A stretch of 64,000 nucleotides of DNA from Flavobacteriales bacterium (lineage in GTDB: Bacteria > Bacteroidota > Bacteroidia > UBA10329), in assembly GCA_021739695.1 (NCBI GenBank), contig JAIPBM010000009.1, forward strand, positions 1 to 64,000, written 5' to 3'. Below are positions 31,303 through 32,605 of the stretch, piece after piece. Under the pieces are notes generated by a model. It worked only from the letters and a program-made list of their open reading frames with translations, did no database searches and was not told where the DNA came from. The first letter of the stretch is position 1. Every line of letters begins with the position of its first letter. The position numbers were made by a program, and so were the translations under genes.

Positions 31303-31328
31303 AAAAGGTATTCAAAGCACTTTGTACC
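31303..31328 (-). terminator. Possible terminator overlapping the stop of the nuclease-ImmA gene
   Basis: On the minus strand GGTACAAAG pairs with CTTTGAATACC (31307-31328), followed by only four T. Weak U-tract, so a candidate only. Confidence 0.4.
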
Positions 31329-32605
31329 TAAACGAAGATTTCGGTTCCGAATTCTTTTATAATTTGACTAATCGACTTTAGCTTAGAGTGGTTCTCAACC
31401 AATTTCAGCTCGTGAAGTCTGAATCTAACCGTTGTTTTGGAGGTTTGAGTCAAATATGCAAGTCTCGAAACTACCTTCTCGTAACCTTGGATATTGTCGT
31501 ATTGATCATCAAGGTAAATTCTACCATTCTTTCGTTCTGCCCATTTCTGGGCTTTATAAAGTAGGGCGGTAAACTGCTGTTTCGGGAGAAGAAGACATGT
31601 TGCGAAGTAATTTGCTTGCCATTCAATCCAGTTCTTCGCGTTTTTTAAAGCATATTTTTCTGTGCTAAAAGAAAATTCGGAATCGGTAAAATGGTCGTAT
31701 AGGTCTTGACTAATTCTCAGTTTTTGATGAAGTAAAAGATGTCCAAATTCGTGAGCCACGATGAATGTTTCTCGTTCAGTATCGATAATTGAAGGATGAA
31801 GAGCAATTGTATTTCTTTCGATATCGCAGATTCCAAGCAATTCTGAAGATGGTTTCAATCTTTTGAAGGTTACTCCATGGAAATCGTGCAAGTACTTTCT
31901 GATTCTAACTCGCGTGACAGCAAATCCTTGGACAAGGATTCTTGGGTCTAACTGATCAAGTTCGCGGTTTGCAATAACTTCAATTTGGGCCTTTGATAAT
32001 CTGTCTAAATTGTAATCAGTTCGATATTCTTGTGACGTATCTGTGAAAGAGTTCGAAATCAGGAAATCAATATGAGCGACAATTTCGCGAATATCATCAT
32101 CGAGATTTGGTTCATCATTATTGTTGCTGATAGTTGGTAACGGTTGATTGAGAAGCTTACGATTGGTTTTATGAAGAAGAATCTTGTAGTTGTCAACCGT
32201 TTCTCCTTGAATTACCATCATGTTGGTCGACTTAGCAATTTCTCGTGCTCCTTTTTGAAGTGGTGCATTGGAAATAAATACACCTTTTATGAAAGCCCCT
32301 TGATTTAAAACTTGCCTTATTTTGGAATGGAATTCTTCAAGATCGTCAACAGGGACTCGCTTCGCATAGTTTTTACATTCGATAAGGTAAAGGAGTGTGA
32401 ATCTTTCAGAGTTTGGAGGCCAAACTTCAATTGAAAGGTCAAAGTGAATATTACTTTTACGTAGGTGCGAGTAGTAACTTTTTTGTTTCCGATTGTAAAT
32501 TTTTATGCAATCAGAACGAAGACCTAAAGAACCTTTTTGAATTGAGTCCTTGATGATTTCAAGAGCACGTTCCTCAAAATCGTCACCTTTTTCAAGAGTG
32601 TTCAC
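31328..32605 (-). CDS. Mrr-like nuclease domain fused to ImmA/IrrE-type zinc peptidase
   Basis: 425 aa from a GTG start. Residues 1-150 look like an Mrr-type restriction endonuclease domain: GDDFEERALEIIKDSI helix, Asp56 in NIHFDLSIEV, the catalytic Glu76-x-Lys78 in LIECKNYAKRVPVDDLEEF, then GVFISNAPLQKGAREIA. A linker runs to about 200. Residues 205-345 carry an ImmA/IrrE-like metallopeptidase: HEFGH at 285-289 and Glu329 in IEWQANYFATCLLLP as third zinc ligand; the remaining ~80 residues are a helical C-terminus (KTTVRFRLHEL). ImmA cleaves phage repressors and IrrE controls DNA-damage responses, so the fusion suggests a self-regulated defence or DNA-damage-triggered nuclease. Lies 39 bp after the ABC-F gene on the same strand, so co-transcription is possible. 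Confidence 0.8.
   Translation of the reverse strand: MNTLEKGDDFEERALEIIKDSIQKGSLGLRSDCIKIYNRKQKSYYSHLRKSNIHFDLSIEVWPPNSERFTLLYLIECKNYAKRVPVDDLEEFHSKIRQVLNQGAFIKGVFISNAPLQKGAREIAKSTNMMVIQGETVDNYKILLHKTNRKLLNQPLPTISNNNDEPNLDDDIREIVAHIDFLISNSFTDTSQEYRTDYNLDRLSKAQIEVIANRELDQLDPRILVQGFAVTRVRIRKYLHDFHGVTFKRLKPSSELLGICDIERNTIALHPSIIDTERETFIVAHEFGHLLLHQKLRISQDLYDHFTDSEFSFSTEKYALKNAKNWIEWQANYFATCLLLPKQQFTALLYKAQKWAERKNGRIYLDDQYDNIQGYEKVVSRLAYLTQTSKTTVRFRLHELKLVENHSKLKSISQIIKEFGTEIFV

Follow-up and report, generated by a model that had tools for sequence, protein, structure and literature searches.

The locus analyzed here raises the question of what a bacterial protein may do that joins, in one chain, a domain of the Mrr-type nucleases, which are DNA cutters, to a domain of the M78 proteases, which are switches that cut repressors. 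The gene (31328..32605, minus strand; 425 aa, GTG start) lies in the window, the stretch of 64,000 nucleotides of a Flavobacteriales bacterium that was analyzed, and its product was described in an earlier note on this DNA as an Mrr-like nuclease fused to an ImmA/IrrE-type peptidase. That description held: both folds were modelled, and the HMM search for both domains that had been proposed with it gave matches above the cut-offs of the Pfam models Mrr_cat and Peptidase_M78. Twelve distinct full-length fusions were found, the window copy included, and the start of the homologues coincides with that of the window protein (MNT/MNS-KGD). An erroneous frame fusion of neighbouring genes was ruled out by the presence of the same fusion at 12 loci, and chance or artefact by the 12 distinct full-length fusions, their invariant sites and the two Pfam models.

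The two domains and the linker between them

All structure readings were taken from a second AlphaFold2 model, built from 13 sequences (six fusions and seven M78-only proteins), in which the mean pLDDT was 72 and the N- and C-terminal parts were well formed; its pTM was 0.50, so the relative placement of the domains is not given by it. A first model, from two sequences, was poor (pLDDT 42.5) and was set aside together with its Foldseek result.

The PD-(D/E)xK (Mrr-type) nuclease domain was assigned to residues 1-146 (32168..32605, minus strand) based on Pfam, the model, fold matches and invariant residues. Mrr_cat matched residues 72-136 (E 2.1e-6, 28.3 bits against a cut-off of 21) and was found in eight of nine family members at E 0.01. 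Asp56, Glu76 and Lys78, which had been named as a PD-(D/E)xK set in the first 150 residues, are present as stated and are conserved in all 12 fusions, and together with the Pfam and fold matches they place the domain among proteins with the restriction-endonuclease fold and a D...ExK set. Other invariant residues of this domain are G7, E11, Y44, S46, R49, E60, C77, P85, F92, K95, K107 and Q117. The absence of a nuclease fold had been named as a finding that would speak against the fusion; the fold was found in the N-terminal part of the model, with block pLDDT values mostly of 70-90, falling to 54 in the first ten residues and to 65 near residue 140. In structure alignments, residues 6-142 matched AF1548 (Z 13.2, 112 residues, 2.6 A), a Pyrococcus repair endonuclease (Z 11.0), EndoMS (Z 10.3) and Cdn1, Can2 and Card1 (Z about 9-11). 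Searches of 72,556 plasmid records with the N-domain gave strong matches to the two fusions there, and those to stand-alone restriction endonucleases were weak.

The M78 (ImmA/IrrE/CapP-type) metallopeptidase module spans residues 201-405 (31391..32005, minus strand), and its assignment rests on Pfam, fold matches and a sequence profile. Peptidase_M78 matched residues 261-358 (E 5.3e-13, 49.3 bits against a cut-off of 22) and all nine family members, and the features of an M78 metallopeptidase, that is an HExxH motif, a third Glu ligand and the M78 fold, are all present. The HEFGH motif reported earlier was located at residues 285-289 (31739..31753, minus strand), with H285, E286 and H289 invariant in 12/12 fusions; the accompanying Glu329 required correction, since residue 329 is W and the third metal ligand is Glu328 (in WIEWQAN; 31622..31624, minus strand), likewise invariant in 12/12. 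The pLDDT of this part was mostly 65-92, with a low-confidence insert at about 300-319. Residues 203-414 aligned with CapP (Z 13.1, 161 residues, 3.6 A), and the module with IrrE (Z 13.0) and ssDNA-bound PprI (Z 12.2); CapP was also the top match in a sequence-profile search of solved structures (E 6e-8). After the peptidase core come a DxQxxN motif, invariant in the 12 fusions (residues 366-371; 31493..31510, minus strand), and an HTH-like segment that is listed for all of them (residues 378-404; 31394..31474, minus strand). Judging from the structural match and PMC10904395, this segment would resemble the HTH that lines the ssDNA cavity of PprI. The DxQxxN motif is kept in one M78-only relative (L020); another (L051) has DNEYHN there.

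Between the two well-kept folds lies a variable and probably disordered linker (residues 147-200; 32006..32167, minus strand), with pLDDT below 50 over residues 145-195 and a length of 32-79 residues across the 12 fusions. It is a candidate region for autocleavage, and no conserved cleavage site is visible in it in the alignment of the 12 fusions. Mean pairwise identity among them was highest in the nuclease (0.40) and the peptidase (0.30) and much lower in the linker (0.15) and a short C-terminal tail (0.16), and identity to the window protein fell to about 24%. Despite this divergence, 31 of the 425 positions are invariant, and they include all seven catalytic residues (D56, E76, K78, H285, E286, H289 and E328); under random placement of sites, the invariance of 3/3 nuclease residues has p = 9e-4 and that of 4/4 peptidase residues p = 1.8e-5. 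Both domains are thus real and look catalytically complete, as far as sequence and model can tell, and the invariance of both active sites in 12/12 fusions argues that neither half is a dead sensor. Distances in the N- and C-terminal parts correlate (Mantel rho 0.56, reached in 0 of 5000 permutations), which indicates that the union of nuclease and peptidase is old and has been kept.

These data bear on one alternative, in which the protein is a type IV-like restriction enzyme that cuts modified DNA and the M78 part is a structural or minor regulatory add-on. The Mrr_cat domain and some likeness of the nuclease to the MspJI and McrC folds would suit such an enzyme, but we consider it improbable because HExxH and the third Glu are invariant in 12/12, which implies that proteolysis matters; moreover, Pfam found no DNA-modification reader domain in the window protein, a result that leaves room for one beyond its models. 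Among the models of PADLOC-DB 2.0.0, capP (E 2e-15), RmrA and PDC-M69B matched the peptidase part and CARF_PDDEXK part of the nuclease, and no listed protein matched the window protein over its full length; the PHROGs match was limited to the peptidase part.

Distribution of the fusion and its site in the window

Searches covered the bacterium's own genome, plasmids, phage records, viral contigs, and genomes of the window's class and phylum. The own genome holds one full fusion and one separate short M78 gene. At E 1e-20 the fusion occurred in 3/395 class genomes, the own genome included, and at E 1e-30 there were matches in 5/395 phylum genomes, again with the own genome included, one of them M78-only and one cut by a contig end; none of the eight congeners has it. 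The possibility that the family is widespread in non-defence contexts, which had been raised as an argument against a defence role, was therefore not realized, as the family is rare. Outside viral contigs the fusions are those of the window, two class genomes (G221 and G278), a Weeksellaceae MAG, a Spirosoma oryzicola plasmid, Acinetobacter (L005 and L006, counted as one) and two genomes of the same phylum (G482 and G556). The other four are on viral, prophage-like contigs (L048, L049, L050 and L076), of which L048 carries a P2-type replication gene and L076 is podovirus-like, with DNA polymerase A and a head-tail connector. The records of L048 and L076, and that of the M78-only L051, contain integrase genes; none was found in L049 and L050, both of which may be fragments. 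Viral scans with a single protein or the first alignment gave nothing, whereas wider alignments found the viral-contig copies; there was no match by DNA in E. coli genomes. In the tree, the copies of the window, G221, G278, Spirosoma and Weeksellaceae form one group (100/99), and the Acinetobacter, viral, G482 and G556 copies lie outside it.

The count of 12 leaves aside a partial copy at a contig end (G634) and the M78-only L020 and L051, the closest M78-only relatives of the fusion. A Rhizobium gallicum match, which covers query residues 160-425 only and is located just after a transposase gene, was not counted as a fusion. Contigs labelled Acinetobacter phage MD-2021a look chromosomal (nuo and nrd genes) and were not counted as phage.

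In the window the fusion gene is separated by 39 bp from the preceding ABC-F gene and by 112 bp from the permease gene that follows, and the three share one strand. The products encoded around it are an ABC-F ATPase, a UvrA-like protein (named from sequence), an amino-acid permease and a glutamate-synthase-like protein. The earlier statement that no antitoxin-like HTH neighbour is visible agrees with this content; there is also no toxin-gene neighbour in the window. The G+C content of the gene is 0.374 against 0.448 in its flanks, and the fusion is below its flanks at 11 of the 12 loci, G221 being the exception. The ABC-F gene is present in seven of eight congeners. In one congener (G002) about 1.6 kb of different DNA, in which the ABC-F end is repeated, separates ABC-F from the permease gene, so the position of the fusion is a variable site. 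The repeat in G002 (L030:3778-3960) is of the final ~38 bp of ABC-F and lies in the gene gap that the fusion occupies in the window, a possible insertion footprint. No clean empty site was seen; the six other congener flanks, two of which are short stretches, do not show the permease beside ABC-F, and no direct repeat flanks the window gene. Absence from congeners, rarity in the class, low G+C and copies on viral contigs make the gene look mobile.

A protease gene together with an XRE-type HTH gene is the usual ImmR/ImmA layout. On contig 13 of the own genome (L011:9599-10565), an XRE-type HTH gene (read from sequence) overlaps a gene for a 176-aa M78 protein that has no nuclease, possibly an ImmR/ImmA pair. 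Unlike that gene, the fusion departs from this layout, as no XRE-type repressor gene adjoins it in the manner of ImmA/ImmR or CapP/CapH. These observations weigh on the proposal that the fusion acts as a regulator of the ImmA/PprI type: its nuclease would sense DNA damage, its protease would cut an XRE-type repressor encoded at another place, and the outcome would be gene induction. In its favour are the M78 fold being nearest to CapP and IrrE, the HTH gene on contig 13 and an S24-type repressor two genes from the fusion in the L048 prophage. We regard it as unlikely, however, given that no HTH repressor adjoins the window gene or is common to the loci, that the contig-13 HTH gene is already paired with its own M78 and that the L048 repressor has an S24 domain of its own.

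Neighbourhoods of the relatives

In our own grouping, six of the 12 fusion loci have a defence gene, a TA gene or an integrase no more than about 8 kb away. The neighbours concerned are a type IIG enzyme and an integrase (Weeksellaceae, L003), a CBASS cyclase/E2 (L004), a NACHT protein (PDC-S60; L018), HigB with a PD-Lambda-2_B-like antitoxin (G278, L010), a Gp49-type toxin (L017) and an integrase (L009). The remaining loci are the four on viral contigs and two, in the window and in Acinetobacter, in which the fusion stands alone among ordinary genes. When the neighbours at 14 loci (12 fusions and two M78-only) were compared all against all, no conserved partner and no shared repressor emerged; what was shared were generic ABC proteins, a helicase-type match, short HTH-like ORFs, integrases and one SRAP pair (L049 and L050). 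Since no partner family is common to the 14 loci, the protein probably works alone. As to the co-occurrence that had been suggested for checking, no HTH repressor is shared across the loci, and defence, TA or integrase genes were found at 6/12 fusion loci. The neighbour set comprised 97 proteins from nine loci outside the window and the viral contigs, with L019 and L020 among them, and the control set 126 proteins from 12 stretches. At 1e-10 the former matched 192 PADLOC families and the latter 24, counts of families that are inflated by related models and do not name the member proteins; nameable defence systems were found at 4/9 neighbour loci and in about 2/12 control stretches, a small excess per locus. 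The excess of defence genes is thus no more than suggestive, and its small size, together with the two copies that stand alone among ordinary genes, counts against a defence role.

Two of these loci have features of their own. Directly upstream of the Weeksellaceae fusion, with a gap of 0 bp, and after the type IIG enzyme, are genes for a 1579-aa phosphoribosyltransferase-domain protein and a 403-aa phosphorylase-superfamily protein (L003:4057-10000), the latter a match to PADLOC PDC-M60C. In G278 a HigB toxin gene and a HigA-like gene come after the fusion (L010:11618-13761), and the HigA-like product matches the N-terminal part of PD-Lambda-2_B without its peptidase part; the nearby fusion has an M78 part, and a functional link between the two is possible.

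Spartan-type proteases trim protein from DNA, and repair enzymes are usually kept vertically. A repair enzyme for DNA-protein crosslinks or blocked ends, in which the protease trims protein and the nuclease the DNA end, would be consistent with a weak SprT-like match (E 0.0026, below cut-off, in one of nine members), with the match of the nuclease to EndoMS and with the L049 locus, where UmuC and a gene matching the L050 SRAP gene accompany the fusion; the SOS/repair genes (UmuC, SRAP) near two prophage copies also fit a repair role. This explanation has little probability in our judgement, as the vertical inheritance usual for repair enzymes is at odds with a rare, patchy gene of low G+C, half of whose loci are in defence, TA or integrase settings.

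The M78-only relatives are relevant to a stronger alternative, close to the preference of the earlier note, in which foreign DNA is recognized or cut by the nuclease-like half; the bound or cut DNA would switch on M78, and the protease, as end effector, would cleave an essential host or phage protein in abortive infection. L020 and L051 lack the nuclease but retain the C-terminal module of the fusion. Their neighbours include defence-like genes, namely R-M and Druantia-like genes (as read from ORFs and the family tally), a reverse transcriptase and an FRG protein, and a small membrane-like gene lies immediately upstream of the M78-only relatives. This setting favours the protease as effector somewhat, as M78 may be a shared core and the N-terminal part a changeable sensor. 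Set against it are the nuclease triad, invariant in 12/12 beyond what binding requires, and the fact that known M78 targets are repressors, with no candidate substrate at hand; such an effector is possible, though we lean away from it.

The row in L051 (7335-11437) consists of the small membrane-like gene, the M78-only gene, the reverse transcriptase gene and the FRG-domain gene, all on one strand, in a viral contig that also has a phage-terminase-like gene (named from sequence); the row may form an undescribed defence cassette. Another viral contig (L055:2709-4928) encodes an M78-like N-terminal part, with a Pfam match just below cut-off, joined to DUF2800/PDDEXK_1, a different make of nuclease-M78 joining.

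Proposed mechanism and comparison with known systems

The reading that we prefer, at a probability of roughly one in three, is that the Mrr-M78 fusion is a stand-alone, horizontally moving conflict protein, most likely anti-phage or anti-plasmid, in which the protease unleashes the tethered nuclease. Its parts differ in strength: a mobile conflict role is probable, the nuclease has about an even chance of being the end effector, and activation by autoproteolysis is tentative. The defence role itself is suggested by context. Sequence and predicted fold place a nuclease and an M78 protease, both intact, on either side of a variable linker in one chain. By analogy with its relatives, the M78-HTH module would remain inactive in the absence of a trigger, be it ssDNA or some other product of infection or DNA damage; once activated, the protease would cleave its own chain (in cis) or, within a dimer, the partner chain (in trans), most likely at the linker, and so may free or unmask the Mrr-type nuclease, which would degrade DNA until the invader is stopped or the infected cell killed. 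Two papers provide precedents: ssDNA activates the proteases PprI and CapP (PMC10904395), and bacterial immune systems, in Hachiman and Avs, activate pro-nucleases by proteolysis (PMC12799240). Given these precedents and the invariant nuclease triad, an order in which the protease senses and the nuclease acts is at least as likely as the reverse order proposed earlier. Counting against the preferred reading are that known M78 enzymes cut XRE-type repressors and not nucleases (PMC10233336, PMC10904395), that the linker shows no conserved cleavage site and that only eight of the 12 fusions have R where PprI has Arg85. That the fusion is a one-gene immune device, with sensing, proteolytic activation through an ssDNA-triggered M78 and DNA destruction in one mobile protein, is more doubtful still.

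Each half of the protein is already known; in the literature searched, which covered few subscription papers and preprints, no paper on the two joined in one chain was found, and the text searched on DefensePredictor mentions neither M78 nor Mrr. With the Mrr, AF1548 and Can2-Card1-type nucleases the fusion shares the PD-(D/E)xK fold and the D-ExK set, but it has an M78 module in place of a visible modified-DNA reader or CARF domain. CapP, the CBASS-associated M78 protease whose repressor is CapH, has the same M78 fold and profile likeness, and a DNA-damage logic like its own is possible for the fusion; the differences are the added N-terminal nuclease, the lack of a CapH-like repressor beside it and a location outside a CBASS operon, with the Spirosoma copy about 5 kb from one. 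In RosmerTA an M78 domain is joined to an HTH antitoxin beside a toxin, and the RmrA profiles match the peptidase part of the fusion. PD-Lambda-2 has the same make. Both systems share an M78 domain with the fusion, in their case within phage-defence modules (PMC9519451, PMC12322248); in the fusion, however, the N-terminal part is a nuclease rather than an HTH, and a toxin gene is not paired with it. PprI/IrrE of Deinococcus, which is ssDNA-activated according to PMC10904395, resembles it in peptidase and HTH segment (Z 12-13), but the fusion has a nuclease in front, no GAF domain by Pfam and no DdrO neighbour.

If autoproteolysis is right, the fusion would share its logic with the nuclease-protease pairs of Hachiman, Avs, Lamassu and DRT, in which a nuclease is likewise coupled to a protease and inheritance is mobile (PMC12799240). 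Those systems use an MBL-fold nuclease and a trypsin- or caspase-like protease from separate genes, whereas the fusion has PD-(D/E)xK and M78 domains in one chain and no separate sensor. If both of its active sites work, damage sensing would be linked to DNA destruction without transcription or a second gene. If the preferred reading is true, proteolytic nuclease activation would extend to a new nuclease class and a new protease class, and the fusion would be a metalloprotease-based, cis version of these separate-gene, protease-activated nucleases.
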